Source: a virus. Taken from it: 39,149 nt of DNA. Shown piece after piece: positions 17,234-31,875 of the stretch. The position numbers were made by a program, and so were the translations under genes. The stretch covers positions 1-39,149 of the IMG/VR virus record IMGVR_UViG_3300042560_001015, one strand, 5' to 3'. A model generated the notes under the pieces. The model saw nothing but the letters and a program-made list of their open reading frames with translations, made no database searches and was not told where the DNA came from. Position 1 is the stretch's first letter. Every line of letters starts with the position of its first letter.

Positions 17234-18805
17234 TTATGTCCCATATGCAATTTCAAGACCTTCGACAACCGCTACCCATCGCCACGTTTCCGAGGTTATG
17301 CCAGTCACATTGATCTGCAGGGCGTCGTTAGTGTTATCAGCGGTAATCGCAACGTCGCAGCCTGCCGAGTCCTCAATGTCTGTACCGATCGTTTCGACTG
17401 TGCCCACTAAGGCAGTCGTGCCGCCGACGTTCTTAATCGCGACTTTTCGCTTGTAGCAAACTGCGGCCGAACCGTCTGATTTAATGCCTGAAATCAGCAC
17501 GTCAGCAAATAGGATCTTCCCCGATGGAATCGTTAATCGCACTGCCGATCCATCTGCAAACAGCGTCGTCGGGGTAGTGTTCGTGGTTTTGTTTCGTAAC
17601 AAAAACCTAACCGATTGATTGTCGCCAGCAACGGCAAATTTTCCGCTTGCGTACGATTGCTGCGAATGTCGATCCGCAGTGCTCTCCCAGCCAAGTGCAA
17701 TTGTGTTCCATTCGCTCGCTGTATTCGCTCGACCGATCGCAACAGCGTGGATATTACTGGCTGTGCAACTTAGACCAAGAGCAATGAGTCCATAGTTAGT
17801 AGCGAGGCATGATGTACCGATCGCGAAATACCCATTCGATGTGACCGAAGTCGACTCACCGATAGCAATTCCACTACTTGCGGAACATGCGTAGCCAATG
17901 GCAATGCTGTATGTTCCTGTTGAACTACATGCGGCACCGATTGCTGTTGTGTACGTGCCAGAGGATGTGTTGCTGATGCCGATTGCAATCGCTCCACTGC
18001 CCGACGCTACTTGTGCTGCTGTAGATCGCAAAGTCTGCAGATCGACAGCATTAGCCCCGCGTGCATTTCCGCCGGTCGATGTGCCATCTGGAACAGCCAA
18101 GCAGAATGCACCCGTCCCCTTGGGCTTTATACTCACACTGACATTTGTCGTGCCGCCTGTCGCTTCAAGGCAGGCATGGTTCACTGTGTTGTTTGGACTT
18201 GCGGTCGCGTTGTCGGCTATCACAAACGCGGAATTTTGCAGCGTTGCTCCACCAGTACCGTCCGCTCGCAAAACCGAATTGTCAGTTGACCCTGTCGCTC
18301 CACCGATACCACCACCTGCCGCTGCGGCATACTCTAATGCCGTTGCTCCAGCGTTAACCCTTAGCACCTGCAATGCTGTACCGAGTGCGGTTAATCCTGT
18401 GCCACCTTTGGCAACGGTGACGGTATCCGATAATGTAGACCCAGCAGCAGTCACCGTTATGTTTGCTGACCCGTCGAAGCTAACGCCGTTGATCGTCCTC
18501 GCCGTTTGCAGGACAGTAGCTGATCCGGCGTTACCACTCACAGTAGTTTGGTCGCCAGTATTTGTGCCGGATGATGTGCCGCTGAATGTCCCTGACTGCG
18601 TCGCGAGTGTCCCAAGGCCGAGGTTAGTCCGTGCTGTTGCTGCCGAAGCCAAGTCGCTGAGATTATTCGCCGCAACAACGTCACCACTGCCAGTTCCAGC
18701 CCCGATCGCAGTGCGTGCAGCAGCGGCATTAGCCGCAGTCATAACAGACCTGCCGACCGATGTCGTATCGATCACTTGCGTTGAGATTAAGGCTTCGACA
18801 GACAT
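17234..18805 (-). CDS. Tail fibre / receptor-binding protein with YadA-like head repeats, 523 aa
   Basis: The N-terminal 160 residues contain phage fibre repeats (NLSDLASAATARTNLGLGTL; VTVAKGGTGLTALG). Residues about 270-385 hold about eight repeats of 13-16 residues built around AIG or ALG: SGAIAIGISNTSSG, TYTTAIGAACSSTG, TYSIAIGYACS and so on. This is the left-handed beta-roll head of trimeric autotransporter adhesins such as YadA. The C-terminal 120 residues form a separate beta domain, a candidate receptor-binding tip. Expected to be a homotrimer on the tail. Most likely the main host-binding protein. Confidence 0.85.
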   Translation of the reverse strand: MSVEALISTQVIDTTSVGRSVMTAANAAAARTAIGAGTGSGDVVAANNLSDLASAATARTNLGLGTLATQSGTFSGTSSGTNTGDQTTVSGNAGSATVLQTARTINGVSFDGSANITVTAAGSTLSDTVTVAKGGTGLTALGTALQVLRVNAGATALEYAAAAGGGIGGATGSTDNSVLRADGTGGATLQNSAFVIADNATASPNNTVNHACLEATGGTTNVSVSIKPKGTGAFCLAVPDGTSTGGNARGANAVDLQTLRSTAAQVASGSGAIAIGISNTSSGTYTTAIGAACSSTGTYSIAIGYACSASSGIAIGESTSVTSNGYFAIGTSCLATNYGLIALGLSCTASNIHAVAIGRANTASEWNTIALGWESTADRHSQQSYASGKFAVAGDNQSVRFLLRNKTTNTTPTTLFADGSAVRLTIPSGKILFADVLISGIKSDGSAAVCYKRKVAIKNVGGTTALVGTVETIGTDIEDSAGCDVAITADNTNDALQINVTGITSETWRWVAVVEGLEIAYGT

Positions 18806-19524: not shown

Positions 19525-19833
19525 TTAGTCCTGTTGCGTTTCCATCTGATCCCAGAGCCACTCAATCACCTGTATCGCAAACTGCCGCACGAAGAACGAA
19601 AGCAGCATTGTGAGAAATGGTGCGACCATTTCGACTGCTTCTTGTTTTGTTCGCGGTGGGTTGCTTGACGACATGACCTTACGAAAGGTGTCGATTGTGT
19701 TTCCAATCTGATCTCGCTTGCGTGCCGCTTTTCGATCTGGCTTTTGAAACATGCTCACGGCCTTTGGCGAGCATTCGAAATGAAAGCACGCCTGATCGTA
19801 TAGGCTGTCACGTTCTAAAAATGCCGCCGTCAT
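19525..19833 (-). CDS. Membrane-associated protein of unknown function, 102 aa
   Basis: The ATG overlaps the upstream stop (TGATG). A basic N-terminal half (KPDRKAARKRDQ) is followed by a hydrophobic helix (APFLTMLLSFFVRQFAIQVI) and an acidic end. It probably has one membrane segment. It sits between the lysis genes and the PAS protein and could be part of the lysis machinery or an inner-membrane partner. No family recognised. Confidence 0.6.
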   Translation of the reverse strand: MTAAFLERDSLYDQACFHFECSPKAVSMFQKPDRKAARKRDQIGNTIDTFRKVMSSSNPPRTKQEAVEMVAPFLTMLLSFFVRQFAIQVIEWLWDQMETQQD

Positions 19834-20105
19834 CAGTAATTCACCCTCACCTGGCTCAACCTCAGATCCACCAACGCATGATCCTCAAACGCTGTCACCC
19901 GCAACACATCCGGATTTATCGGCCCCGGAATATCAACCTCAACGGTCCCGTCTGTCACTGTCAACACTGCCTGTTCGCCGTCATGTTGCAGTTTTAGGTT
20001 AACCGTCTCTGACCATTCAATCCGCTCAATGCGTCCGCTGATTACCGCTTGGATTGCCTCGCGGATATTCAGGTGTCGCAGATCGACTGGCTTGATCAAG
20101 TTCAT
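19833..20105 (-). CDS. Small soluble protein of unknown function, 90 aa
   Basis: The ATGA overlap with the lipoprotein gene fixes the start. N-terminal helix (LRHLNIREAIQAVISGRIER) and a beta-rich remainder (TVEVDIPGPINPDVLRV). No signal peptide. I do not recognise it. It is translated together with the lipoprotein and the 102-aa membrane protein. Confidence 0.55.
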   Translation of the reverse strand: MNLIKPVDLRHLNIREAIQAVISGRIERIEWSETVNLKLQHDGEQAVLTVTDGTVEVDIPGPINPDVLRVTAFEDHALVDLRLSQVRVNY

Positions 20106-20701
20106 CGAAACAAGCCTCCGAAAAGTCCACGCCGCTGTCTAGTGTTTGTTGGGCATTGGCCACCGGGACATTGCGACCCGCGATTGATCATCTGCACTGG
20201 CTTTGACTTCATCGCGACTGGCTTGCCGTCGTGTAAATCGGCATGGATGTCAGCCATCTGCTGGTGAGTCATGCCGTCCGTGTTGATGCCATGCTCACGC
20301 AGATGTGCTGATGTCTGAAGGATTGTCGGATTCCAATTGCCTTCGATGTCCAATCGAAGAACCGTGCCATCTGAAGCAACACGAGAAGAAGCCGCCGGCG
20401 TAGCGACTTGAGAGGAGTTAGGGGTGTTGTTCGCTGTTGCCGGCGGCTCAGGGGCAGACTTGATCACCTCCGTTCCGTTGGACTTTGGAGACGACAAACT
20501 TGCTTCCAGTTTTGTTTCTATGCGAGCGAGTGCTGCTGTGTTTTCCTTCAGGATCACAACAGCTTCGATTGTCTTTTCTGATGTCGCTTTCTGCTCAGAA
20601 ACGACAGTCTCTTTTGCGTTTTCAAATGCTGTCCGCATCGCCGCGAGTTCACCAGAATCACCGCATCCAGTTAGCATGATCAGAAACAGAAATCGTTTCA
20701 T
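20102..20701 (-). CDS. Putative lipoprotein, 199 aa
   Basis: The start at 20701 forms an ATGA overlap with the protease stop; the longer frame upstream is a shadow. The N-terminus MKRFLFLIMLTGCGDSG is a signal peptide ending in a lipobox (LTGC), so the mature protein should be lipid-anchored. Residues 20-75 form a coiled coil (ENAKETVVSEQKATSEKTIE). A Pro/Ser/Thr linker follows, and then a domain with DIEGNWNPTILQTSAHLRE and a basic Cys-containing end. A lipoprotein with a coiled coil next to the holin is a candidate outer-membrane spanin, but no partner inner-membrane spanin is clear. Confidence 0.7.
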   Translation of the reverse strand: MKRFLFLIMLTGCGDSGELAAMRTAFENAKETVVSEQKATSEKTIEAVVILKENTAALARIETKLEASLSSPKSNGTEVIKSAPEPPATANNTPNSSQVATPAASSRVASDGTVLRLDIEGNWNPTILQTSAHLREHGINTDGMTHQQMADIHADLHDGKPVAMKSKPVQMINRGSQCPGGQCPTNTRQRRGLFGGLFR

Positions 20702-21522
20702 ATCTCCAGCCCTTTCCGCATGTCTTCCAAGGTGAATTCCCGAGGCTTTACGTTTGGCATGTCGGACAGACCGAAGCAGGCCGTGTACCGATGCCGCAGC
20801 ATTTGCTCCACGGCATTTGGTGCCCATTCAGCCCAGCCACCATTGCCCCAGTTTGCTCCCCAACTGTTAAGGATGAACACGAAAGGCCGACCGGAAGAAT
20901 CAAGCCGTTCTGATAAGCCAAGCAGGGCTATCGCATGGCCGCCACCACCTGCCCCACTGAATGAATTGACGATTGGGCGGTCGACTTCGCCACCCCATGA
21001 AATGCCGATTGAGATTCCGCCTTGGCCGCTGCCGAGAAACGTTCTCACGCCGTCATAGGACTCCATTCGGTAAGACTGGCCAACCTTATGCTGAGCCGCG
21101 TCTGCTTCGATCTCGGCCCAATTTGACGGCCTGCGAGCGTCGTAACGGCCTGAGTATTTCCAGAGTTCTTCGCGGCAGATGCCCTTTGTCGTCGCGAGCT
21201 TAATCCCGCCGCTAATTGTGCTGCCACGGTCAGACGTGATTCCGTCGATTCGCTGAGTCTCGTAATAAGCCGCAGCCCTCGACAACTGCAAAGACAGATC
21301 ACTAGTCGCAATGTAATAGCATAGCTCGCAAACGCTACTCAGTGCGTGCCCCTGACAGCTTCCGACCGATCCTTGGTTTTCAATTTTCATCACCTTGCGA
21401 GGGTCAACCTTGACTTCGCTGTAACTGCCTCGCATGGCAAGCACTGCTGATTCCCCTGGCAATGCGTCCAGAAAATCGCGATCTTCTTCAGTCTGTAACC
21501 ATCCGCCGATGAAGCCGCTCAT
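20698..21522 (-). CDS. Papain-like (C1 family) cysteine protease, 274 aa
   Basis: All four landmarks of papain-type peptidases are visible: NQGSVGSCQGHAL with oxyanion Gln50 and nucleophile Cys56, GGGGHAIALLG with His196, and ILNSWGANWGNGGWA with Asn219. There is no signal peptide or long pro-region. The length suits a bare catalytic domain. The gene follows the holin and a membrane protein with ATGA overlaps and precedes a lipoprotein gene, i.e. the position normally held by an endolysin. No lysozyme, amidase or transglycosylase gene is seen elsewhere. It may act on a protein or peptide component of the host envelope. The fold call is strong, the lysis role is inferred. Confidence 0.88.
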   Translation of the reverse strand: MSGFIGGWLQTEEDRDFLDALPGESAVLAMRGSYSEVKVDPRKVMKIENQGSVGSCQGHALSSVCELCYYIATSDLSLQLSRAAAYYETQRIDGITSDRGSTISGGIKLATTKGICREELWKYSGRYDARRPSNWAEIEADAAQHKVGQSYRMESYDGVRTFLGSGQGGISIGISWGGEVDRPIVNSFSGAGGGGHAIALLGLSERLDSSGRPFVFILNSWGANWGNGGWAEWAPNAVEQMLRHRYTACFGLSDMPNVKPREFTLEDMRKGLEI

Positions 21523-21998
21523 TTGCCCTCCAGTTCATCAGCAAACTTTGCGAGCGTTCCGGCTGCAAAATGATCTGTTACCGCTGACGTGTACGGTCGA
21601 AAGTCAGGGCCGCGATTGCGAAAACGGTTATCGTTGAACCATTTGGTTGCGGCTTCTCTGCCTGCGTCGTCGTTGGTAAAACACTTTGCGGCGTAGTCAC
21701 GCAAGACAGCCGCCTGAGTGACCCTGTCGGCGTCGTAGGACTGCTGAAGCACGTCATTGCGGACAACCGGCCCCGGACCAATTGGAATGCCGCCCGCCGC
21801 ATAAACTCCAGCCACAGCCCCGGCAACAATCAGCGCGACGGCCTTGGCCCCACTGACTAACCAAGACCGCCACGCGATTGACTCGAAATGTCGGTCGAGT
21901 GCGTCGATGTCATACTCGACAGGCTTTGGCTCAACAGGCTTTTTTGCCGCTGGCTTTCGCTTTGCCGGAGGTTTTGCGGGGGCTTTTTTGGCCATCAT
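21519..21998 (-). CDS. Membrane protein with basic N-terminus, 159 aa
   Basis: The first 28 residues are Lys/Pro/Ala-rich (AKKAPAKPPAKRKPAAKKPV). A hydrophobic segment (SGAKAVALIVAGAVAGVYAA) spans the membrane once, followed by a soluble, aromatic C-terminal domain. Start chosen for the ATGA overlap with the holin stop. It lies between holin and protease. It could be a second holin, an inner-membrane spanin-like protein or an anchor for the protease. No family recognised. Confidence 0.6.
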   Translation of the reverse strand: MMAKKAPAKPPAKRKPAAKKPVEPKPVEYDIDALDRHFESIAWRSWLVSGAKAVALIVAGAVAGVYAAGGIPIGPGPVVRNDVLQQSYDADRVTQAAVLRDYAAKCFTNDDAGREAATKWFNDNRFRNRGPDFRPYTSAVTDHFAAGTLAKFADELEGK

Positions 21999-22234
21999 GC
22001 CACCATCGCACATGAGCAGGCGACGAACAGCAACACGGCTGGCGGAACCGTCTTGTTCTTGCCAAAGTCAGCGAGACCTTGGCTCACAACGTAGGCAGCA
22101 ATCGCCCCGATGATTTGCGTCACGGCTTCTTCAGGCAACTGCAAGCCGATTCGATTTGTGGCGACGATCAGCACGCCAGCGAGTGTAGCAATGGCTTTTT
22201 TGCTGGTGAGCAGTTCCGCGATTAGCTTCCACAT
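21995..22234 (-). CDS. Putative holin, 79 aa
   Basis: ATG 22234 is chosen because GGAG lies nine bases upstream and the text begins MWKLIAELLTSKKAIA, a common start of small phage holins. There are two to three hydrophobic segments (AIATLAGVLIVATNRIGL; IIGAIAAYVVSQGLADFG; PPAVLLFVACSCAMVA) with charged residues between. It follows the promoter at 22318-22346. Holins time lysis by forming membrane holes. Confidence 0.72.
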   Translation of the reverse strand: MWKLIAELLTSKKAIATLAGVLIVATNRIGLQLPEEAVTQIIGAIAAYVVSQGLADFGKNKTVPPAVLLFVACSCAMVA

Positions 22235-22379
22235 CTTCACGCACTCCATGACGCTGCGAACGCGCAAAACCTGTGCGCGAAACAGTCAAGAGTCGTCATA
22301 ACACCAGCGGTAGAGACATCATGCCAGGAACGCGGCCAAATGTCAATGCAATTTGAGCAGAGCTATGGTTAACCGATCC
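22235..22379 (-). promoter_or_regulatory. Leader region of the lysis block
   Basis: A gene-free 145 nt stretch upstream of the holin. It contains a promoter (22318-22346) and, closer to the gene, a perfect 6-bp stem CGCGCA/TGCGCG (22261-22279) with a 7-nt loop that would form in the mRNA leader. Confidence 0.55.
22318..22346 (-). promoter_or_regulatory. Sigma70-like promoter for lysis/late genes
   Basis: On the minus strand a perfect -35 TTGACA (22346-22341) is followed after 17 bases by CATGAT (22323-22318), a weak -10. It directs transcription into the holin and protease block. The poor -10 may mean activation is needed. Confidence 0.55.
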
Positions 22380-22568
22380 TCAAACCAACGCCTCGCCCGT
22401 CACTCGATGCCAGATCGCCGCACAGGCCATCATAATGCCAGTTTGATATTCCATGTTTGCCGCTTCCGGAATTTCCTCGCGAAGACGTTCCGCTGACCGA
22501 TACAGATTCAGCAGTTCCGCTTTCCAGCGGCTATCGGGACGGCTCATTTTTCTTTCTTCGATTGTCAT
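22380..22568 (-). CDS. Small helical protein, 62 aa
   Basis: ATG 22568 has GAGGAG five bases upstream; the GTG one codon earlier is too close to it. Contains SRPDSRWKAELLNLYRSAER and MACAAIWHRVTGEALV. No membrane segment. Function unknown. Last gene before the lysis promoter. Confidence 0.6.
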   Translation of the reverse strand: MTIEERKMSRPDSRWKAELLNLYRSAERLREEIPEAANMEYQTGIMMACAAIWHRVTGEALV

Positions 22569-22597
22569 CACAACTCCTCGCGACTATCGGAACGAAA

Positions 22598-22611
22598 TTC
22601 CGCTGTTGATT
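22598..22611 (-). repeat. Copy of dispersed intergenic motif AATCAACAGCGGAA
   Basis: This word lies in the 43-nt gap between the 114-aa and 62-aa genes. An identical 14-mer is at 23018-23031, and a 13-mer in the other orientation at 18824-18836. Confidence 0.5.
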
Positions 22612-22956
22612 TCAGGACTTCAAAGCCGCGATTGACTCGCCCTCTGCCACGTCAGTGCAGGTGACGCACCATCGGCACAGCGTTCCGGACTCATCCTCAT
22701 GGCCCGTCAGCTTGTCTTCACATTTTTCACAGGTCTTGAAGTACTCAACTGGCTTGCATTCTGCGTCCATTTTCTGTTCCTCAACAAAGGCTTCAATGCT
22801 TTCCCGCATCTCACGAAGCAGCGGGCTAATCTTGAGTTTCCATTTCTGGTGAGACTCAACCGCACATGGTGTGCAGAGAGGACCGACGCGGAGTCCGAAG
22901 AATGTTTGCGGATGTGCTTTTGAGTTTCCGCACCGAGTACACTTTGAATCAACCAT
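22612..22956 (-). CDS. Double zinc-finger protein, 114 aa
   Basis: Two four-cysteine clusters: CTRCGN with CTPC in the first 31 residues, and CEKCEDK with CRWC plus CVTC near the end. A helical linker (SPLLREMRESIEAFVEEQK) joins them. Likely binds zinc and perhaps nucleic acid or a protein. Not assigned to a named family. Confidence 0.65.
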   Translation of the reverse strand: MVDSKCTRCGNSKAHPQTFFGLRVGPLCTPCAVESHQKWKLKISPLLREMRESIEAFVEEQKMDAECKPVEYFKTCEKCEDKLTGHEDESGTLCRWCVTCTDVAEGESIAALKS

Positions 22957-23017
22957 CAGATCACCTGTAAACGAAAGCCCAATGTTTTTCGCGTTTCACA
23001 CCAACAGAGCATACAAG

Positions 23018-23047
23018 TTCCGCTGTTGATTCTGTTTGCATCAACAG
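23018..23047 (-). repeat. Dispersed motif copy overlapping an inverted repeat
   Basis: The 14-mer AATCAACAGCGGAA (23031-23018) overlaps a perfect 8-bp inverted repeat, CTGTTGAT at 23023-23030 and ATCAACAG at 23040-23047 with a 9-nt loop, at the end of the 70-aa gene. It could be a weak terminator-like hairpin or a binding site for a phage protein. Confidence 0.45.
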
Positions 23048-23253
23048 GCTGACGCGCCCATTGATGAGTTCAGCAACTCACGAGGAACGCACATTCGTCC
23101 CTCCGTGTTTTTATCTCTGTCCAACGTTTCCAACTCGATCACGTCTTCCTGATTCGTTGCGCCGAGGAACACCCCAACAACACGCCAAACCCTCCAGCCT
23201 CCATTGTCTGCACGAACGCGAATCAACTCATCGACCTTCCACGATTTTGCCAT
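23041..23253 (-). CDS. Small beta-rich protein, 70 aa
   Basis: ATG 23253 (MAKSWKVDELIRVRADNG) begins within the end of the iron-sulfur gene (26-base overlap). The text WRVWRVVGVFLGATNQEDVI suggests a small SH3-like barrel. Function unknown. Confidence 0.55.
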   Translation of the reverse strand: MAKSWKVDELIRVRADNGGWRVWRVVGVFLGATNQEDVIELETLDRDKNTEGRMCVPRELLNSSMGASAC

Positions 23254-23467
23254 CTTTGCTGCTTTCTTTAACTGACAATGCTTGCGGCGGACACAGTTCC
23301 ACCTGCTTTCTGATTTCCTCATTTGTTGCCCCGTTCATGTTTACACATGGACGCGACTGCGGATCGAACACGCTCGGCAGCCCACGCCAACATGCTTCGC
23401 AATGCTCGCACTTCTCGGAGTCCCACAGGACCGTCAGCCCATCTTTCGTGTACTCACGTTTTGCCAT
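23228..23467 (-). CDS. YjdI-type divergent 4Fe-4S ferredoxin-like protein, 79 aa
   Basis: Matches the Fer4_19 (YjdI) family pattern: VLWDSEKCEHCEACWRGLP, then VFDPQSRPCV, then IRKQVELCPPQAL. The Cys at positions 20, 23, 26 and 59, and possibly 41, could hold one iron-sulfur cluster. In bacteria this family is found alone or with GNAT or CDGSH partners, with poorly known functions. It is rare in phages. Next to it are unknown small genes, so its electron partner is not apparent. A metal-binding but clusterless role cannot be excluded. Confidence 0.75.
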   Translation of the reverse strand: MAKREYTKDGLTVLWDSEKCEHCEACWRGLPSVFDPQSRPCVNMNGATNEEIRKQVELCPPQALSVKESSKDGKIVEGR

Positions 23468-23473
23468 GTCTGC

Positions 23474-23680
23474 TCACCCTACCACTGACCACACATCGAA
23501 AAACAGATCATCAACCCATTGCCCAGTGAACCGCACAGCCTTCCCAAAGGACGCCTTGATGTCCGCAATGAGCCCAGGGCTAAAATAGATTTCCACTCGC
23601 CGCCCCTGAGACGACAAGATCCTCCCCGTGTGAGTGTCCAGGTCGATCTGCCGAATCTCCCCCGTCAGTTGCTGAGACAT
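23474..23680 (-). CDS. Small beta-rich protein, 68 aa
   Basis: GAAGGAAAACCA upstream of ATG 23680 is a good ribosome site. The text GEIRQIDLDTHTGRILSSQG, then KAVRFTGQWVDDLFFDVW, suggests a small beta barrel. Its first 101 bases overlap the end of the DUF6884-like gene in another frame. Function unknown. Confidence 0.6.
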   Translation of the reverse strand: MSQQLTGEIRQIDLDTHTGRILSSQGRRVEIYFSPGLIADIKASFGKAVRFTGQWVDDLFFDVWSVVG

Positions 23681-24206
23681 TGGTTTTCCTTCGTGTGTAG
23701 GTTCGCGTTTTGGTTTTCGTTTCTGGTTTCGCCTGACAATACCACGCCAACTGCTCACCGATCCCGAGGCCAGCCAGCGGCAGCTCGACCGCGATTCCCA
23801 CTGCTGCCAGAATCTCTGCCAGCGGATGGCAGTAGTCAGCCCCGGCGTGGATCTCTACCGTGAGTTCTGACGGCTTGATTGGAGTAACTGACCTCCCAAG
23901 GTTGTAGGACTCCCAAAGCTCCTCCATGAGCCTCTGAGCGACTCCGACGTGCCAGGCTGCAATGTCCGCCGCTTCCATGTCCGCGAACGTCTGATCGTAC
24001 GCCTTGAGCCCGATGTGCGGGAACCAAACGCCGTACCGAGCCGACAGGACGGCCCAACGAATCCCCCTAGCTTTTGCGTAGTCGACTCGCTTCGTAAAAA
24101 GCTGCGATCCGTAGAGTTGCTCAGGAGTGACGCGACCGCCTGTCCGTGGATCAAAGTCGACAGCCTTTTTTGTTTTGCTGCAGCCGATCAGCATTAGTCG
24201 TGTCAT
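23580..24206 (-). CDS. DUF6884-like protein, 208 aa
   Basis: The N-terminus (RLMLIGCSKTKK), the LYGSQLFTKRVDYAKARG helix, WAVLSARYGVWFPHIGLKAYD and the conserved YD are typical of the DUF6884 family, which is related to YaaA-like folds. ATG 24206 has GGAG upstream. The core ends near residue 165; the last about 40 residues are low complexity (KTKTRTYTRRKTN) and overlap the next gene. Members occur in phages and actinobacteria, and the biochemical function is not known. Confidence 0.7.
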   Translation of the reverse strand: MTRLMLIGCSKTKKAVDFDPRTGGRVTPEQLYGSQLFTKRVDYAKARGIRWAVLSARYGVWFPHIGLKAYDQTFADMEAADIAAWHVGVAQRLMEELWESYNLGRSVTPIKPSELTVEIHAGADYCHPLAEILAAVGIAVELPLAGLGIGEQLAWYCQAKPETKTKTRTYTRRKTNVSATDGGDSADRPGHSHGEDLVVSGAASGNLF

Positions 24207-24255
24207 CTTAAGAAACTCCAATGTTTTCAGGGACAGTGGATGCAATTACCTCTGT

Positions 24256-24678
24256 TCAAAACGACCCGACATCCGTAGCCCAATCTGCCGCAACATCCAG
24301 CTCGCGTCGAATACCCTCTAGGCTCACCCACAGATCATGCTCAGTCTTGCAGATCCCGCCGTCAGCCATTCCCGCCTGCACGATGGCTTCCAGTTTCTTT
24401 TCCGCCTGCTGCACGGCATTCAGCAAATGTGGAGCACACGCGATCAACACAACGTTCCGCCATCGATCGCCGTCCTCACCATCGCGAATGATATTGTTGT
24501 CTCCGTACTCATCCGGCCCGCATGGAATGCAGTCAATCTCGCATACCGACACCACCATGTGCGGACTACCCGCGATCGGAATGTGAATCACCGCAGTCGC
24601 CTCGGCAGCCTCCGGGTAATCCCTGTCGATTCGGCATTCCCACGACATCATTCCGTTTTCCAATAGCCTACTTTTCAT
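24256..24678 (-). CDS. Unknown protein, 140 aa
   Basis: A mixed alpha/beta protein with ATAVIHIPIAGSPHMVVSV and a helical C-terminus (LLNAVQQAEKKLEAIVQ) preceded by CAPHLLNAV. The phrase resembles small early phage proteins that carry an LIAxAPxxL helix. A purine-rich site precedes the ATG. No function is assigned. Confidence 0.6.
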   Translation of the reverse strand: MKSRLLENGMMSWECRIDRDYPEAAEATAVIHIPIAGSPHMVVSVCEIDCIPCGPDEYGDNNIIRDGEDGDRWRNVVLIACAPHLLNAVQQAEKKLEAIVQAGMADGGICKTEHDLWVSLEGIRRELDVAADWATDVGSF

Positions 24679-24725
24679 AACTCTCCCCTTTGTTTTTGTG
24701 AGCAGCGGATGTTCCGCTCCTCCGC

Positions 24726-24908
24726 TTAACGCAACTCTTTCAAAACCTTCACCTGAATCAATCGAAGCTGAAACGTCAGAAACCGCTTCCTGTCGCTCGC
24801 CAAATGCTTCTCTGCCTCCGCCCGATCCTTTGACCGGAACGACTCACGCCAAAGAACATCGGCAGCCCTGCGAAACTCGACAACGTATTCCGGTTTGTTT
24901 TCGCTCAT
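24726..24908 (-). CDS. Small basic protein, 60 aa
   Basis: Starts in an ATGA overlap with the upstream 106-aa gene. Composition is basic and helical (RSKDRAEAEKHLASDRKRFL). Function unknown. Confidence 0.55.
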   Translation of the reverse strand: MSENKPEYVVEFRRAADVLWRESFRSKDRAEAEKHLASDRKRFLTFQLRLIQVKVLKELR

Positions 24909-25225
24909 ACCAGCCTCTTCATTTCTTGCTTTTGTTTCTCGACCAGCATCTGCGCCGCCGACTCATTACCATCAAATGCAGCGTCTCTGAGTTGCGTTAT
25001 CGTCAGTCTCTTTGTGTCACCGAATGGCGCGTAAACTGTTGTCGGCCGCCTCGCCCTCACCTTCCGGGCCTCCTCTGCAATCGTTCCGAGGTTTACGAAC
25101 TCGACAGAGGAGTGCATCACCTGCTCGATTGCCATGAGCACATCATCAACGTCGTAATCCGCCGCCAGTTTTCGTGCCCAGAATGCATGAGTGTCATCAT
25201 CGAGTTTCAGTGTCGGCTTTGCCAT
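24905..25225 (-). CDS. Early protein downstream of replication gene, 106 aa
   Basis: I chose ATG 25225 (MAKPTLKLDDDTHAFWARKL) because the longer frame overlaps the end of the replication-like gene. The protein is helical and charged. Position after the initiator-like gene suggests a replication accessory role, perhaps a loader or adaptor, but no P-loop is present. Confidence 0.55.
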   Translation of the reverse strand: MAKPTLKLDDDTHAFWARKLAADYDVDDVLMAIEQVMHSSVEFVNLGTIAEEARKVRARRPTTVYAPFGDTKRLTITQLRDAAFDGNESAAQMLVEKQKQEMKRLV

Positions 25226-25241
25226 TGCCAGTTCTGAGAGC

Positions 25242-26105
25242 TTAACTGCTACCAGCGGAAAGGATTCGTTGCAGTTTTGCTTTCTCGCGTTCTGCCGTGC
25301 TTGATGGACTTGTAGGTTTCCCATGATTGCTTCCGTTCTGTTTTACGCTCGGCTGTTCCTGCTGGTCCTGAAACACCACCCAACCCTCTGCCATTGACTT
25401 TTGGACCGCGGCGCAAAATCCATCCGCACCCATTTTTGACACCTCGTGCCACCACGCTTGCTCCTGCGGGCTGTTCCGCGGTGGCACTTTGCTGTGTTTG
25501 TCTTTGCTTTCAAGATGGCGAAACCACAAACCGACTGACTGCATTACCGCAGCAGTTTTCATTCGCTCAGGAACAACGATGTCTTGCCCAGGAGAATAAA
25601 GAGAGAGAGAAGGACTAGGGCTAGAAGGTTCCCCCTGTTCGTACCCCACTTCATCCCTTGTTCGTACCCCACTTCGTATCCCGATTTCGGATGTATTCGT
25701 GTTCAGTTGTCCGTCTCTGAATCCGTCTTTATACCCCTGATCGTATCCCGATTTAGGGTATGATTCTTCGATTGGAGTATCGTCGATGGCTTCGTATCCG
25801 CTTGGAATTGTTACGAAGTATTCACCCGCGGATCGCTTGCCGTTGCACTCATACTGAAGCCACCCAGCGGCGACGGCTCGCTTTCTTGCCGCGTCAAATT
25901 GCTCCCATTTCTTGAACCCAAGCGTTTCGACGAGCTGTGAGTTCCAAAACTTTGCGGCCCCGCGGTATCGCATTGCGTCTTCTGTATGGACGATCACGAC
26001 GAGGAGCGAAAAGGCATCTCGACCGATCTCGGCGGCGACGGCTGATTTGTGCAGCAGCCTCACGAACCTATGGGCAAAAAACGGCTCACGCCTTGGATAC
26101 GGCAC
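25242..26105 (-). CDS. Replication initiator-like winged-helix protein, 287 aa
   Basis: GTG start at 26105 with GGAGG just upstream. Residues 10-95 form a winged-helix domain of the kind seen in phage replication initiators: FVRLLHKSAVAAEIGRDAF, then a WNSQLVETLGFKKWEQFD helix, then AGWLQYE. The middle (about 110-160) is low complexity with GYDQGYKDGF repeats encoded by repeated DNA. The C-terminus has EQAWWHEVSKMGADGF. As with lambda O, the origin may lie inside the gene. It shares 20 bases with the fusion gene upstream. Confidence 0.65.
   Translation of the reverse strand: MPYPRREPFFAHRFVRLLHKSAVAAEIGRDAFSLLVVIVHTEDAMRYRGAAKFWNSQLVETLGFKKWEQFDAARKRAVAAGWLQYECNGKRSAGEYFVTIPSGYEAIDDTPIEESYPKSGYDQGYKDGFRDGQLNTNTSEIGIRSGVRTRDEVGYEQGEPSSPSPSLSLYSPGQDIVVPERMKTAAVMQSVGLWFRHLESKDKHSKVPPRNSPQEQAWWHEVSKMGADGFCAAVQKSMAEGWVVFQDQQEQPSVKQNGSNHGKPTSPSSTAEREKAKLQRILSAGSS
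25637..25755. repeat. Repeated sequence in the initiator-like gene, possible iterons
   Basis: GTTCGTACCCCACTTC occurs twice exactly (25637-25652 and 25660-25675). TTCGTATCCCGATTTC (25673-25688) and ATCGTATCCCGATTTA (25740-25755) are close variants. Spacing is irregular. The repeats encode a Gly-Tyr-rich linker, so they may be only protein repeats, but their place within an initiator gene fits replication iterons. Confidence 0.5.
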
Positions 26106-26979
26106 GACTTTCCTCCTGCTCGTATAGTCGCTGTAGTTCTTGCATTTGGATCTGCCTCACCCCTACAGCCTCCCAAACTTCATCTGCACATATCTCGCAT
26201 GATTCTGCTTCCAATACCTCCTTCGCTGCAAACCTAATGACCTGCCATCCGCTTGCTTCTAAATATCGCGTTCGCTTTCTGTCCGCGATGAATGCAGCCT
26301 GATTCCCGTGGAACTCGATTCCGTCAATTTCAACGACGATCTTTGTGTCCACAAACGCAAAGTCAACTCTATAGGGTCCGATCTGGTGCTGTGGAATTGG
26401 TCTATCATATAATCTCTGCATCGACGAAATCAGCTTCCTTGCGAACGCTAATTCTGCTGGCGACTCGCAAGCATTCATGAACCTGTCGTAATCGTCTCGC
26501 TCGTCGCAAATGTCTAAGATGCTGTCGACTGTTTCATTCCTGTACAAGCCAAACCCACCGATGCAAAATCCTTTTGCAAACCAGCATTCTTTACCTTCGC
26601 TTCCGACCACATACACAGGCTTTCCGATGCCGTAAGCGAATCCTATTTCGCACAGGGTTCCATGTGCGTCGTCGCCGACGACAGCAATCACAACGTCGCT
26701 GCTACGAATTCCTAAGATGGCGCGTTCCCATACATCTTTGTGCGGCCTGAGTTCATGTTCATGTGTGTTTTTGTCGTAAACACTTTCTCCTGCACCATGC
26801 ATCCCATCGCCGTGAGCCCCACCGTGTTGACCTTCAATAAAAAATGGCCCAACATAGTCATGCCTGCCCCTGATGGCATTCTTTATGACCTTTGTTCCAA
26901 ATGGGTGATTGCAAAGATCGTCCACGAAATCGTTTCGCCAATCCTTAAACCCGATCTTTCCAGCCAAATAAATCTTCAT
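26086..26979 (-). CDS. Nucleoside deoxyribosyltransferase-like domain fused to a DUF559/Vsr-like endonuclease, 297 aa
   Basis: Residues 1-140 match the nucleoside 2-deoxyribosyltransferase fold: MKIYLAGKIGFKDWRNDF, then SSDVVIAVVGDDAHGT followed by CEIGFAYGIGKPVYVVG, where Glu111 is the likely nucleophile. A His-rich insert spans about 50-80. Residues 172-255 are a PD-(D/E)xK nuclease of the DUF559/Vsr type: SPAELAFARKLI, YRVDFAFVDTKIVVEIDG (Asp206, Glu217, Asp219), then GWQVIRFAAKEV. The two domains together suggest cleavage of a base-sugar bond, or sensing of a nucleotide, coupled to DNA nicking. No such pairing is familiar to me. It is preceded only 13 bases after a strong terminator and followed by the initiator gene. 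Confidence 0.78.
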   Translation of the reverse strand: MKIYLAGKIGFKDWRNDFVDDLCNHPFGTKVIKNAIRGRHDYVGPFFIEGQHGGAHGDGMHGAGESVYDKNTHEHELRPHKDVWERAILGIRSSDVVIAVVGDDAHGTLCEIGFAYGIGKPVYVVGSEGKECWFAKGFCIGGFGLYRNETVDSILDICDERDDYDRFMNACESPAELAFARKLISSMQRLYDRPIPQHQIGPYRVDFAFVDTKIVVEIDGIEFHGNQAAFIADRKRTRYLEASGWQVIRFAAKEVLEAESCEICADEVWEAVGVRQIQMQELQRLYEQEESRAVSKA

Positions 26980-26992
26980 TGTTCATTCCATG

Positions 26993-27038
26993 AAAAAAAC
27001 CGCCACGCAAAAAGGTCGAGAACTTTTTGCGGGCGGTT
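26993..27038 (-). terminator. Strong intrinsic terminator/attenuator upstream of the fusion gene
   Basis: A 14-bp stem with one bulged base (27000-27014 paired with 27023-27036, 8-nt loop) is followed on the minus strand by seven Ts (26999-26993). It sits only 13 bases before the ATG of the 297-aa fusion gene, leaving no room for a promoter between them. It may close the early operon and also attenuate the gene behind it. Confidence 0.85.
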
Positions 27039-27039
27039 A

Positions 27040-27060
27040 CATTCGGGACTAAGCCCGATG
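27040..27060 (-). ncRNA. 5' hairpin of a short leader or small RNA
   Basis: The minus-strand RNA can form a 7-bp stem with one bulge (CATCGGG paired with CCCGA and TG) around the loop CTTAGT, just after the predicted start site and directly before the terminator hairpin. Together they would make a structured transcript of about 70 nt, either a small RNA or the attenuated leader of the fusion gene. Confidence 0.45.
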
Positions 27061-27067
27061 CGATTAA

Positions 27068-27095
27068 ATTGTATGTGATGGAAGTCTCGACTCAA
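27068..27095 (-). promoter_or_regulatory. Sigma70-like promoter upstream of the attenuator
   Basis: TTGAGT (27095-27090), a 16-bp spacer and TACAAT (27073-27068) on the minus strand. Transcription would start near 27062 and enter the hairpin/terminator leader of the fusion gene. It is in the 223-nt gap after the 93-aa gene. Confidence 0.55.
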
Positions 27096-27202
27096 CCAGC
27101 ACGCCCGTATTATCTTCACCGCGCGGATTTCTGCATTAGAAAATCGCGGTCCATTGCCATCTTCTGCAAATCTAATCCGCTTTCGGACGCCAATCTCAGA
27201 AG

Positions 27203-27484
27203 CTACTCATCATCCCCGAAAAGATTTCTTTGCGCGGCCAAAGGTTTCTTTGCCTCTGGCTGCTCAGTAATCCACGCCTGCAACTCCTCCCAGGTCTTAA
27301 CCGGCGTGTTCTCGCCATGAATGACCGCCGACCCATCGCCAGCAGCCAGCCAAAACGATTCAGGCTGACCTTGCCGAATGCCTTTCACGCAAACGGCGCG
27401 GCCAAGTTCTTTGAGATCCGCTCCCCAATCTTCAGGGGTGAATCCGATCGTGCGAAGCCAGTAAAGTCGTTGGTTGTGGCTCAT
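27203..27484 (-). CDS. Unknown early protein, 93 aa
   Basis: ATG 27484 lies one base after the upstream stop; an in-frame ATG at 27505 would overlap that gene. Contains NQRLYWLRTIGFTPEDWGAD and KTWEELQAWITEQPEAKKPL. The end (NLFGDDE) looks like a short interaction tail. Function unknown. It is the last gene before the terminator. Confidence 0.6.
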   Translation of the reverse strand: MSHNQRLYWLRTIGFTPEDWGADLKELGRAVCVKGIRQGQPESFWLAAGDGSAVIHGENTPVKTWEELQAWITEQPEAKKPLAAQRNLFGDDE

Positions 27485-27485
27485 A

Positions 27486-27683
27486 TCAGTGTTGCTTGTG
27501 TGCATCCCATTCGGTCATCGAATCATCATTCCCGCTCGTCTCAGTCACCGGCCGATGTTTCTGCCGCCCGAAGTCAATCGCCTCTTGGATCTGACCAATC
27601 GGCAATCGTTCCACATGCGGCGGCATCTCGTAGCCGTAGACAGAGAACCATTCATCGTGAAAGCGTGTTTTACGTTTGGTCAT
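27486..27683 (-). CDS. Unknown small protein, 65 aa
   Basis: ATGA overlap with the HD-protein stop. Text includes FHDEWFSVYGYEMPPHVERL and IGQIQEAIDFGRQKH. No membrane segment or metal site is clear. Function unknown. Confidence 0.55.
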   Translation of the reverse strand: MTKRKTRFHDEWFSVYGYEMPPHVERLPIGQIQEAIDFGRQKHRPVTETSGNDDSMTEWDAHKQH

Positions 27684-28231
27684 CTCATCGCCTCCAGCGT
27701 CTTCATCGTTTCCTTAAACGACACAAGCCAGTGCGTTGCGTCAATCTGTGCGTTTCCGTGAAACGCCAACTGCCAAGCTGCTTCCCTAAGATTTGGTAGT
27801 GCGTCCGTGATCTCGCTGGATGACTTGCCCAGCAACTGCATCTCCAGCTTGCAGGCCGTGTCGTCGGCAGTGCTGACCGCGTTCAGCACAGCGATTGACG
27901 GATCGAACCCAATCAGCGAATACAACTGCCGGTCGATAGCCTGTTGCTCGCAGAGGATCTCCATTCGCGACGACATGCTAAGAAGCCGCGTCATCGGCCG
28001 CAGAATGTCGCCTGTCAACGCCTCGTGGGCATCGTGTAACAACGCCGCCATCTTGTGTTCTGGATCGTCAGGAGCCAATGCCGCGACAACCAAAGAATGC
28101 CGAGCCACGCTGTAATGATCTGGCGTTGCTCCGGCGTATCGGCAGAGCTTTCCAAGTTGCCGTGCGATCTGTTCTGCGGGGAATTCCGCTATTGACTGGA
28201 TCTCCGGCAACATCCATGATGGCCGACTCAT
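27680..28231 (-). CDS. HD-domain phosphohydrolase, YfbR-like, 183 aa
   Basis: His45 (HYSVARHS), His66-Asp67 (ALLHDAHEALTGD) and a later Asp (STADDTACKLE) form the HD metal site. The motif order and length are those of YfbR-type 5'-deoxynucleotidases, which hydrolyse dNMPs. In a phage this would adjust nucleotide pools or remove modified nucleotides. ATGA overlaps at both ends place it in the early operon. Confidence 0.8.
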   Translation of the reverse strand: MSRPSWMLPEIQSIAEFPAEQIARQLGKLCRYAGATPDHYSVARHSLVVAALAPDDPEHKMAALLHDAHEALTGDILRPMTRLLSMSSRMEILCEQQAIDRQLYSLIGFDPSIAVLNAVSTADDTACKLEMQLLGKSSSEITDALPNLREAAWQLAFHGNAQIDATHWLVSFKETMKTLEAMR

Positions 28232-29190
28232 GCTGCACCGCCTTTCAATTCAACCTGCCGAGCCTGATAGTATGGCCGCACCAGTGACAGCACCTGCTGG
28301 CTAACGCTGGCTTTCATTGCTGCCAGCTCCTTGCCAGCCTCTTCCAGTTTCTCCATCGTCTTTGCCGCGGCAATCTCATTCCAGACCGACTCAACAAACG
28401 TCAACTGGTCCGGATTGTCACCAAGAATCTTGCGGATGCGTGCCAGCGATGGCTCGTGCTTTTCGGTTTCGGATGGTTCAGGCTGCACCACCACTGGCTG
28501 TTGCGGTTCCTCAATCAGCATCGTCTGCGGCATAACTTCCACTTCGTCCGCCTGATCATCATTCAGGATTGGGCTAACCTTGGTCCACAACGCTTTCAGG
28601 AGCTGCCTGCGGCCCTTGGCTGTGATTCCTGCCACATTGTCCGACTCATAGCCCGGCAGCCCCAAGGCCATCGCCCCAGAGAACTCCACCGCGTATTCCT
28701 TGCCGCCATAGGAGCAGGAGGCCTTTCCTTCAACTCGCCAAATTTTCTTTCCAGACTTTCCAAGCGGCACAAACTCAGGATGCCCGACTGAAACCTCTGG
28801 CACAATTCCGAGGTGCGCAAACAGCGTTCGAAAGCCTGCCTCCTTCGTGTAGAGCTTTCCGCCCCCCTTTCCGCCGAACACGGCAAACTGATCATCGCCA
28901 GGACAGAACCCGCTCAGGATGGCAATCGCACAAACCCTGATTCGATCTTCGTCCGTTGGATTGTTGGCGAGTTCAACCATGTTGATTCGTGGATCAGTCA
29001 TCCGCAGCAGACGGGCCTTGATGTTCTCATCGGTCAATGACTCGATTAACTGAATGCGAGCCTCTGCCATCGCGAACGCCGCGTTAATTCGTGATCCATT
29101 CTTTGCTGCGTCAATCAGTTCGTTCCGGCTTGCGTCAATTCGCGTGAGCCAGTCTCCGACCGTGTTGGTTGTAGTAGTGATCGTGCCCAT
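28228..29190 (-). CDS. Unknown DNA-metabolism protein, possibly recombination-related, 320 aa
   Basis: Residues 80-200 have a conserved-looking core: CAIAILSGFCPGDDQFAVFG, then KLYTKEAGFRTLFAHLG, then a SDNVAGITAKGRRQLLKALW segment. An acidic linker (VVVQPEPSETEKHEP) leads to a helical C-terminus. The core's strand, Gly-Phe-Arg helix and Arg-rich helix order loosely recalls phage single-strand annealing proteins, and RusA is two genes away, but I do not recognise the family with certainty. Overlaps the 131-aa gene by 76 bases. Confidence 0.55.
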   Translation of the reverse strand: MGTITTTTNTVGDWLTRIDASRNELIDAAKNGSRINAAFAMAEARIQLIESLTDENIKARLLRMTDPRINMVELANNPTDEDRIRVCAIAILSGFCPGDDQFAVFGGKGGGKLYTKEAGFRTLFAHLGIVPEVSVGHPEFVPLGKSGKKIWRVEGKASCSYGGKEYAVEFSGAMALGLPGYESDNVAGITAKGRRQLLKALWTKVSPILNDDQADEVEVMPQTMLIEEPQQPVVVQPEPSETEKHEPSLARIRKILGDNPDQLTFVESVWNEIAAAKTMEKLEEAGKELAAMKASVSQQVLSLVRPYYQARQVELKGGAA

Positions 29191-29510
29191 TTTCGTATTG
29201 CCTCGATTTCTAAAAAGATCGTTTCGTCGGTTAATTGTTCAGCGAGCACCTGCACTCGCTGTTCTGATTTATGCTTCTCAATGTCTCGTTTTGCCTTCTC
29301 AATCCTTGCCCGCCACATCGGATGAGTGATCGGCTTTCGTTCGTCGTCGCGATACCGTGCAAACGGATCGACAACGTCATACGTTCCAAGCCCGAGCCAA
29401 TACGAGTCTCCGGCTGTTGCCCCGAAACTGCGTTCGTTGATGTAACGCCGATGAATGTGCGCACAGTATTCGTGCGATGGCGTGAAACTAATGCAGAAGA
29501 CTTCACTCAT
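29115..29510 (-). CDS. Unknown protein, 131 aa
   Basis: ATGA overlap with the RusA stop. Contains HEYCAHIHRRYINERSF and KITHPMWRAR-like basic text, with a helical acidic/basic middle. A proline- and serine-containing end overlaps the 320-aa gene. No family recognised. Confidence 0.55.
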   Translation of the reverse strand: MSEVFCISFTPSHEYCAHIHRRYINERSFGATAGDSYWLGLGTYDVVDPFARYRDDERKPITHPMWRARIEKAKRDIEKHKSEQRVQVLAEQLTDETIFLEIEAIRKWARSLLQPTRSETGSRELTQAGTN

Positions 29511-29920
29511 TCGCTCACCCCGCGAATAACGATTTCACACCTTGGAACACACTCACCACTGCACACAAATTTTCTTACGGTCGCTGAAAACACCTGCGCG
29601 TCGTCGACCCACGCCAGCCCGTTCAACGCATCAAGCACGGCCTTCAGCACGTTGTCAGCATCAGGCTTTTTGATATGCCGATACGATGGCATCGGCCTTG
29701 TTTTCCACGTCTTCGATTTCGGCCGAGGAAACCAAGCATTGACGACAATCTCCACCGCCTCATGGAATGGCAGTCGCTTTCCGAACTCTGCTTGGACTGC
29801 CCGCTTAAATGCGTGAACTGGATGCTTCGCTGGAAGATACATGCGAGCATGTTTCCCGTGTGTCGATATGCGATGTCGTGGCTGTCCAACTGGCTCGTGG
29901 TACACGACGAACTCTCTCAT
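29507..29920 (-). CDS. rusA: RusA-family Holliday junction resolvase, 137 aa
   Basis: The KPDADN motif (residues 85-90) followed by AVLDALNGLAWVDDAQV contains the conserved acidic residues of RusA that bind metal (E. coli Asp70, Asp72 and Asp91 equivalents). ATG 29920 is in an ATGA overlap; the longer reading overlaps the 83-aa gene. It would cut recombination or replication junctions in phage DNA before packaging. Confidence 0.88.
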   Translation of the reverse strand: MREFVVYHEPVGQPRHRISTHGKHARMYLPAKHPVHAFKRAVQAEFGKRLPFHEAVEIVVNAWFPRPKSKTWKTRPMPSYRHIKKPDADNVLKAVLDALNGLAWVDDAQVFSATVRKFVCSGECVPRCEIVIRGVSE

Positions 29921-30168
29921 CCCTGCCCCCTCAAAACGCCGCTGCCACTTGGAAGCATTTGCGTCGAACACTCACGAATCTGTGACGGCCGATACAAGCC
30001 TTTGTCCTCTGGAAGATCAGGCCGTTCCATGCGGATCGATTCCGCCAGTCCGATAGTTGCTTCAGTGCCCCAAATCTCTTCTAATGATGGATCTCGCGTC
30101 ATTGGCTTGCGATCGACTGAAGCGTGCAGCCTGTTGGATTTCTTCCCGGCTTTCTTGCGTCGTGTCAT
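29917..30168 (-). CDS. Small protein of unknown function, 83 aa
   Basis: Starts in an ATGA overlap with the csrA stop and ends in one with rusA. Basic N-terminus (TRRKKAGKKSNRLH), then acidic/helical (SLEEIWGTEATIGLAESI). Not recognised. Confidence 0.6.
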   Translation of the reverse strand: MTRRKKAGKKSNRLHASVDRKPMTRDPSLEEIWGTEATIGLAESIRMERPDLPEDKGLYRPSQIRECSTQMLPSGSGVLRGQG

Positions 30169-30437
30169 TGCGGTTTCCTTCTCATGAGTTCACCTGGTAG
30201 CCGTTCACCGATTCGCACGACTGGCATAAGCGGAGCAATTGGAAACGCCTCTGGATTGAAGCCTGTTTCCTGAATCGCGTCGTGGATCTCCTTACGGTCG
30301 ATCCTCACGTTCCGCGATGCCGTGAACCCAATCCGTGCGTGATTGGTTCCGACAGTGTCAACCAGCTTGACGACAATCCTTTCCTCACCGACCGTGATGA
30401 TGATCTCCTCACTAACCGACCTTCGAAGCACCAACAT
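30165..30437 (-). CDS. csrA: CsrA/RsmA-family RNA-binding regulator, 90 aa
   Basis: The first 56 residues align by eye with CsrA: MLVLRRSVSEEIIITVG, then HARIGFTASRNVRIDRKEI followed by HDAIQ. Arg48 sits at the RNA-binding position of E. coli Arg44. A 34-residue extension (NPEAFPIAPLMPVVRIGERL and so on) is unusual. ATG 30437 is preferred over 30452 because AAAGGA lies just before it; this site also fits the CsrA binding word, so autoregulation is possible. CsrA dimers bind GGA in mRNA leaders and control translation or stability. It could redirect host carbon metabolism or regulate the phage's own mRNAs. Confidence 0.88.
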   Translation of the reverse strand: MLVLRRSVSEEIIITVGEERIVVKLVDTVGTNHARIGFTASRNVRIDRKEIHDAIQETGFNPEAFPIAPLMPVVRIGERLPGELMRRKPQ

Positions 30438-30448
30438 CTGAAATCCTT

Positions 30449-30553
30449 TCATTGACCATGAAAACCTGCGAACGGCTTTGACGAACTATTGACCACGCCA
30501 CCGCTGGCAAGCCGTCCGCAGGAGTACAAAATCAGAGCCTGCTGCGCCTTCAT
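30449..30553 (-). CDS. Possible leader peptide before csrA, 34 aa
   Basis: An open frame ending in a TGA 11 bases before the csrA ATG. No clear ribosome site. The ATG lies inside the long inverted repeat at 30532-30606. It could be a regulatory leader peptide or chance. Confidence 0.25.
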   Translation of the reverse strand: MKAQQALILYSCGRLASGGVVNSSSKPFAGFHGQ

Positions 30554-30694
30554 TGGCTTGCGGGGGCCAGCCGTTGAAAATCATTTTCCAATGCAGCAGG
30601 CTCTGAGGAGATTCGCCCTGTGCCGTTGCCACAGAGCCGGACAGAAACACTCTGCCCGTTGCGATTTGATCCGGTGGACCCTTGCCCTCGCCGG
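30454..30694 (-). other. Leader region between the 46-aa gene and csrA
   Basis: About 240 nt with no confident gene except the doubtful 34-aa frame. It holds the large inverted repeat. This is the longest quiet stretch inside the early operon. Confidence 0.5.
30532..30606 (-). promoter_or_regulatory. Large inverted repeat in the csrA leader
   Basis: Perfect 14-base arms TCAGAGCCTGCTGC (30532-30545) and GCAGCAGGCTCTGA (30593-30606). Inside, ATTGG (30552-30556) pairs with CCAAT (30588-30592), and GAAAATCATTTTC (30576-30588) is a 13-bp near-symmetric dyad. The RNA would be a long bulged hairpin about 95 nt upstream of the csrA start. It may control csrA translation. Confidence 0.6.
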
Positions 30695-30835
30695 TTAGTA
30701 AGTCCGTCCATATTTCTCACGGATGTGCCGTTGAATCCGCTTCCGCTCAGCCCGCTCGCTGACAATCTCACACGAGCCAGCAGCGAAGCAACCAAGCATC
30801 ACGATCACTAAAAATGCCAGACAGCTATTGAGCAT
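30695..30835 (-). CDS. Small membrane protein, 46 aa
   Basis: The ATG lies 11 bases inside the end of the zinc-ribbon gene. The N-terminus is hydrophobic (CLAFLVIVMLGCFAAGSC), then a basic tail (ERAERKRIQRHIREKYGR). One membrane segment or a lipoprotein signal (LGC) is likely. A short toxin, lysis-related or anchoring peptide are all possible. Confidence 0.55.
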   Translation of the reverse strand: MLNSCLAFLVIVMLGCFAAGSCEIVSERAERKRIQRHIREKYGRTY

Positions 30836-31106
30836 TGGCCAGTCTCCTTTTTCGTTTTTCCATCATCGCCGCTCGTGCAATGTGAGCAGTCGCCAGTCCC
30901 TTGATCCGTGCCTTCTCTCTTCGCAGGCACCCGCACGACTTGACGTGACCATCGCGAAGACGTGCCACGTTTACCGTTTTGGTTTTGCCGCAGACGCACT
31001 GGCAAAACCATTGCGTGTATCTGCGTCCGTCTTTTCGCTCGTAGTCTTCAACTTGCCAGAGAACTGTGAGGCGTGATTCAGGGTGAGGGATTGGTTTTGT
31101 TGTCAT
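30825..31106 (-). CDS. Zinc-ribbon protein, 93 aa
   Basis: ATGA overlap with the GNAT stop sets the start. Residues 30-70 hold FCQCVCGKTKTVNVARLRDG and SCGCLRREK, a common small phage zinc ribbon seen near HNH nucleases and in regulators. The C-terminus is basic and helical. Probably binds DNA or protein. Confidence 0.65.
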   Translation of the reverse strand: MTTKPIPHPESRLTVLWQVEDYERKDGRRYTQWFCQCVCGKTKTVNVARLRDGHVKSCGCLRREKARIKGLATAHIARAAMMEKRKRRLANAQ

Positions 31107-31552: not shown

Positions 31553-31875
31553 TGCTGCTCCTTCACGCGAAACGTCATTGCTGATTTGCCGGTCACTTCG
31601 CAGGCCCGATAACCGCATTCAATGGCCTTGCCGACCTCGACCAGTTCGTGTAATCGCTTCCGATATGACTCTGCCAGCTTGCCATACTGTCGGACGCACT
31701 CGGTTGCGATCTCGTTGGCTGTTCGTGGTGACAATGCACGACCGAGGACAACCATGCAGCAGGATTGCAGGCCGGTTAGCTGTGGCTCTGTTTCGGCAGC
31801 ACTTTTTTGCGACGTGATTGGGTCTGATTTGCGGGAGATGTTTGCGGGACAGTCGAAGAGGGTTAGCTGGCTCAT
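31549..31875 (-). CDS. Winged-helix-like protein, 108 aa
   Basis: ATGA overlap with the methyltransferase. After a short N-terminal peptide (SQLTLFDCPANISRKSDPIT) comes a helix-turn-helix-like region (LSPRTANEIATECVRQYG) and VGKAIECGYRACEV, typical of winged-helix proteins encoded next to phage DNA enzymes. Could regulate early genes or modulate the methyltransferase. Inference from pattern only. Confidence 0.6.
   Translation of the reverse strand: MSQLTLFDCPANISRKSDPITSQKSAAETEPQLTGLQSCCMVVLGRALSPRTANEIATECVRQYGKLAESYRKRLHELVEVGKAIECGYRACEVTGKSAMTFRVKEQQ

Follow-up and report, generated by a model that had tools for sequence, protein, structure and literature searches.

In the window, by which we mean the whole 39,149-nucleotide viral record that was analysed (IMG/VR IMGVR_UViG_3300042560_001015), six genes follow one another on the minus strand in the order holin-like protein, anchored protein, protease, lipoprotein, 90-residue protein and 102-residue protein (Table 1). 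Start and stop codons overlap throughout the run. The start of the lipoprotein gene, for example, overlaps the protease stop (ATGA), and the likely start of the anchored protein, at 21998, overlaps the stop of the holin-like gene. Downstream of the run lies a tail-fibre-like gene, and the terminase genes come after it. The tail-fibre-like protein (17234-18805) matches YadA head repeats with an E-value of 0.0006, below the cut-off. The early region (22380-34498) encodes a DUF6884 protein, a 4Fe-4S mono-cluster protein (PF06902), a CsrA-like regulator, a nucleoside deoxyribosyltransferase and a GNAT acetyltransferase.

Table 1. Features of the protease locus, in order of transcription (window coordinates)
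Feature	Position	Strand	Remarks
Promoter-like site, TTGACA-17-CATGAT, TG before second hexamer	22318..22346	minus	10/12 matches; directly before cassette
Holin-like small membrane protein; possible starts 22267, 22249, 22234	21995..22267	minus	PHROG 9987 holin, weak, E 0.0016
Membrane-anchored protein, one transmembrane segment, helical C-terminal part presumed periplasmic	21519..22013	minus	Family c1
Peptidase C1A (papain, xylellain type), proposed endolysin, 274 aa	20698..21522	minus	Pfam, PHROG, PDB, model, conservation
Lipoprotein: LTGC lipobox, coiled coil, HLREHGINTDGMTHQQMADIHADLHDG module, CPGGQC and basic tail	20102..20701	minus	Family c3
90-aa protein, family c8	19833..20105	minus	Start overlaps lipoprotein stop
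102-aa protein, hydrophobic C-terminal segment, family c32	19525..19833	minus	Last in overlapping run

A first-pass annotation had placed the protease between a holin plus a membrane protein on one side and a lipoprotein on the other. The neighbours agree with this, the holin as a candidate with a weak PHROG match, the membrane protein with its single transmembrane segment and the lipoprotein with its lipobox. What that annotation overlooked was the conservation of the upstream partner and the thioredoxin-like domain of the lipoprotein family; its coordinates for the protease reading frame were exact, and it did not state the strand. The anchored protein matches nothing in Pfam or PHROG. Neither it nor the lipoprotein, which between them flank the protease, matches a spanin family in either collection; their topology resembles that of a spanin pair. 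Small proteins related to the holin-like one precede the protease in 13 of the 68 loci with enough upstream sequence. Family c1, that of the anchored protein, occurs at 48 loci (re-fetched duplicates included), mostly directly upstream of the protease, and in the nearest relatives the c8 protein usually comes after the lipoprotein. The promoter-like site ahead of the holin-like gene is suggestive only, being the best of three sites in a region where 2.6 would be expected by chance, and the predicted RNA fold before that gene is no better than those of shuffled sequences.

In phage lambda the holin, endolysin and spanin genes form a compact group before the terminase genes. The window has a similar look, with compact genes for a holin-like protein, a soluble enzyme, an inner-membrane-anchored protein and a lipoprotein, also before the terminase; it differs in that its enzyme is a protease preceded by the anchored protein, and in that many relatives have a thioredoxin-like member of the lipoprotein family. 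Among phages related through the large terminase (TerL; L136-L165 and others), many contigs begin some 500 bases ahead of TerL, immediately in front of the small terminase gene. This points to a cos- or pac-like genome end near window position ~14470 and to a permuted window assembly. With an end at that place the presumed lysis genes would directly precede the start of packaging, as in lambda.

The protease matches Pfam PF00112 (Peptidase_C1) with an E-value of 1.3e-7 and 32.4 bits (cut-off 20.7), and PHROG 16701 ('peptidase') at 1.9e-7. Its nearest PDB sequence is xylellain, 3ois (2.4e-11), and a profile built from 47 relatives reaches the same entry at 4.5e-28, together with cathepsins. Among those 47, whose identity falls as low as 21%, Gln50, Cys56 and His196 never vary, and more than 90% keep Asn219 (one relative, L007/L043, does not have it), so the reading frame is not a chance one. 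The C1 signature reported at first pass was therefore numbered correctly and is conserved. An AlphaFold2 model built on the 47 aligned relatives (pLDDT 91.3, pTM 0.90) has xylellain 3ois as its top structural match (Z 26.9, rmsd 3.0, 240 residues); cathepsins and papain come next, many of the cathepsins at Z above 20. The papain fold claimed earlier is thus borne out. No signal peptide or transmembrane segment was seen in the protease. Sequence and model together identify the protein as a C1A peptidase with predicted proteolytic activity, a narrower assignment than 'papain-like' in the broad usage that includes CHAP and NlpC/P60.

Where else does this protein occur? A profile scan found at least 97 relatives at IMG/VR loci, 80 of which were fetched, and tblastn of the window's protease against 50,697 annotated phages returned nothing. 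Two divergent relatives match Thermoanaerobacterium phage THSA-485A, and one of these also matches an unannotated 595-kb phage. A single scan of GTDB 220, one genome per species, gave one relative, on a Planctomyces MAG contig. Profile searching of 392 Planctomycetota genomes gave strong matches in megabase-sized contigs of G349, G311, G222 and G133; the weaker matches in the same Planctomycetota genomes were mostly open frames of 550-750 residues, which resemble host C1 peptidases. In G349 and G311 the cassette is followed by a gene that has a terminase-like relative (in G349 it is a Pfam TerL_ATPase match), which marks these two as prophages or remnants. Because relatives of the protease lie in Planctomycetota chromosomes, the window's phage probably infects a planctomycete. 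The G133 chromosome has a three-gene cassette (L134 9057-11770) of a multi-transmembrane protein, a C1 protease and a thioredoxin lipoprotein with neighbours that are not phage-like, presumably a remnant or a domesticated copy; a test gave no support for reading its upstream gene as a holin fusion. Some phage loci have an extra gene beside the protease, family c24, which by eye resembles an HNH/AP2-type homing endonuclease, inserted in the gap between anchored protein and protease (L046, L048-L050, L052) or after the protease (L043).

It is the cassette as a whole that is conserved, beyond the protease alone. Directly upstream in most relatives is a small protein with one transmembrane segment or a lipobox. 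Automated rules on hydropathy and motifs were applied to 40 cassettes with less than 85% protease identity: 33 had an upstream neighbour, anchored in 23, and in 31 the downstream product was anchored or secreted. Sixteen of the downstream products have a CxxC motif, mostly in a thioredoxin-like setting, and 14 more have only CxxxxC (CPGGVC, for example). Among the families of the upstream partner, c4 is related to G349u and G425u, and c1 probably to c110; comparison of c1 with c4 established no link.

The downstream gene of the chromosomal copies matches Pfam Thioredoxin in G349 (6.3e-6), G222 (1.5e-6) and L090 (5.8e-6), and in G133 at 4.4e-4, below the cut-off. For the phages, an AlphaFold2 model of family c3 has a block pLDDT of 82-90 over the domain, with the CxxC at a helix start, and its structural matches are nearly all thioredoxins, the first being the periplasmic thioredoxin SoxS (Z 6.1). 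Although this Z is not high, the motif, the fold and the Pfam matches point the same way, and phage c3 relatives carry a thioredoxin-like domain. A full-length c3 protein consists of lipobox, coiled coil, thioredoxin-like domain, 'WTWPGDLATHLRETHGV' module and CPGGVCP basic tail. The window's own lipoprotein (20102-20701) has no CxxC; just the module and the CPGGQC tail remain, and by its sequence it has evidently lost the thioredoxin-like domain found in many relatives. Across 34 records the Pfam Thioredoxin model matched one gene, outside the cassette, and so neither confirms nor excludes the domain in phages. Another downstream family, c20, had no usable match in a PDB profile search. One phage group (L083 7328-7840; L084 and L088 as well) encodes, downstream of its C1 protease, a small protein with the zinc-protease motif HExGH; against Astacin the L083 protein scores 0.001, below the cut-off.

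The same slot can be compared in phages fetched by TerL relatedness, whose protease sequences are unrelated to the window's. Four of them (G424, G427, G425 and G431) have very divergent C1 proteases there, with E-values of 1e-10 to 1e-21, each followed by a secreted or lipoprotein gene with a thioredoxin-like CxxC (CAPC, CAPC, CGPC and CAPC, respectively). In G431 (L230 668-1813) that lipoprotein joins a Trypsin_2 domain (1.1e-8) and the CAPC thioredoxin-like segment in one chain. With the weak astacin-type protein of L083, this makes two cassettes with an additional protease. The contig of a fifth, G426, ends within a very divergent C1 protease, below the search threshold, and G423 has in this slot a 322-residue protein with papain-like motifs and then a thioredoxin-like protein, assigned by eye. 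For the divergent proteases of G423 and G424 phmmer gave no usable match. No muralytic enzyme was seen in the slot of these phages, and its recurrent content is a protease with a redox partner. Another phage, G421 (L216 14525-16525), encodes a protein with a sulfatase-modifying-factor (FGE) domain (4.2e-33) between its tail and helicase genes.

Our first-pass annotation had seen no lysozyme, amidase or peptidoglycan peptidase in the genome, and that absence has held up. Models for Amidase_2, Phage_lysozyme, M23, SLT, CHAP and GH25 matched in none of 34 records, several of them incomplete; the window record was searched in six frames, and known genomes served as positive controls. There was no peptidoglycan hydrolase among the listed Pfam and PHROG matches of the window's reading frames, nor, by Pfam, among 58 reading frames of a 68-kb relative (G005) or among further unassigned genes. 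No known muralytic catalytic domain was found in the protease, which is C1A. Many genes in the window and its relatives have no family match, and since the Thioredoxin model found just one gene in the 34 records, although such proteins are visible by motif and structure, a divergent lysin could escape Pfam.

Whether peptidoglycan or protein bears the load in the planctomycete envelope has been disputed for decades. One published description of the wall is that of a disulfide-bonded protein sacculus (PMC2754498). Planctopirus limnophila can dispense with murA-G and murJ, and its deletion mutants of genes such as mraY, rodA, murJ and pbp2 grow normally and have a normal shape (PMC10632474). With a protein sacculus and dispensable mur genes in its host, a phage would gain little from a muramidase alone. 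PBP transpeptidases are encoded in all 18 genomes checked, so some peptidoglycan is probably made by the cassette-bearing hosts; 'no peptidoglycan' is an unsafe premise, and the proposal that these hosts have none is unsupported. An early guess that the host has a proteinaceous layer gains support from the cassette in Planctomycetota chromosomes, the protein sacculus and the dispensable mur genes; the encoded transpeptidases speak against a simple version of the lysis reading.

We propose, with a probability of roughly 0.58, that the run is the lysis cassette of a planctomycete tailed phage and that its endolysin is a xylellain-type papain protease, with a putative lytic role and substrate. 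The protease, having no export signal, would fold and stay active in the reducing cytoplasm until, at a set time, the holin-like protein opens the inner membrane. It would then meet its anchored partner, synthesised immediately earlier and perhaps serving to position, activate or restrain it, and would digest the proteinaceous layer of the planctomycete's envelope. In many relatives the lipoprotein is a thioredoxin-like thiol-disulfide protein; it might open disulfide cross-links or keep the catalytic cysteine reduced, and the cell would burst. The job given here to each partner is one we infer. A released cytosolic cysteine protease, an anchored periplasmic partner and a thiol-active lipoprotein fit a disulfide-linked protein wall.

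Could the lysis be done by something else? The protease might be an auxiliary factor for lysis or egress that clears a surface or S-layer-like coat, while a very divergent, unrecognised peptidoglycan hydrolase elsewhere in the genome lyses the cell. We consider this unlikely. The transpeptidases of the hosts and the many genes without a family match agree with it, and in THSA-485A the C1A papain gene directly adjoins a GH25 lysozyme, so a helper role has precedent; against it stand the six hydrolase families missing from all 34 records and the lack of a peptidoglycan hydrolase in the Pfam scans of the 68-kb relative and of further unassigned genes. Somewhat less credible is an accessory envelope cassette with no part in lysis, for superinfection exclusion or as a host-modifying trait of the lysogen, the protease cutting a protein of the host or of an incoming phage. 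Exclusion systems often include lipoproteins and small membrane proteins, and the G133 copy lies among genes with no evident phage neighbours. The window's cassette, on the other hand, is an overlapping run with a holin-like gene, is placed before the terminase genes as in lambda, and is present in most examined relatives of the phage group, with no other recognisable lysin. Least credible, and very improbable, is a head-maturation or virion protease that processes structural proteins or rides in the virion for entry: the window has no confidently annotated head protease and in one phage group (L060) the cassette lies inside the head-tail structural module, which also tells against a simple lysis reading, but a better candidate is the gene at 8499-9632, before the Mu-gpT-like capsid gene, which has a weak match (E 0.002) to 'major head and protease protein' and is conserved with capsid genes in most TerL relatives listed, whereas the C1 gene is linked to genes for membrane proteins and lipoproteins.

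How does a protease-centred lysis cassette compare with what has been described? We know of no account of how phages lyse planctomycetes, and a limited literature search found none. Xylellain, the closest solved structure, has the same short C1A architecture and catalytic residues; it is about 20% identical, and is a cellular protein with no tie to a holin, an anchored partner or a redox lipoprotein. Tailed phages are reported to have acquired xylellain-type C1A genes (PMC10380794), and the literature examined gave no function for the phage proteins. THSA-485A, a sequenced phage of a named host, has its C1A gene near a cell-wall lytic enzyme; the likeness extends over part of the protein at 26% identity, no neighbouring annotation names a thioredoxin-like partner, and the adjoining GH25 lysozyme sets it apart from the window, where no muralytic enzyme is recognised. 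PeiW and PeiP are cysteine peptidases with which phages lyse hosts that have an unusual wall (PMC4592898); they belong to another peptidase family and cleave an isopeptide bond in pseudomurein, and are no general C1 proteases. The main text of a 2025 survey of viral lytic proteins has no mention of papain or of planctomycetes (PMC12596118). What appears to be new, then, is a conserved cassette with thioredoxin-like envelope partners, present in planctomycete chromosomes and without a recognisable muralytic enzyme. The window's protein is a member of peptidase family C1A; that it works like an endolysin we infer, and we claim for it no membership of a muralytic endolysin family.

More tentatively, and at somewhat less than even odds, we suggest that across a large and diverse set of planctomycete phages muralytic endolysins have been replaced by a protease and envelope-tethered thiol-disulfide proteins, because the load-bearing wall of the host is a disulfide-linked protein sacculus. 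If this is true, the lysis genes of these phages reveal which structure keeps a planctomycete cell intact. A conserved lysis cassette of protease plus thioredoxin would be evolutionary evidence of an independent kind on the load-bearing wall, and would supply enzymes for direct tests of it. Such a cassette would also extend the concept of the endolysin past peptidoglycan and pseudomurein.
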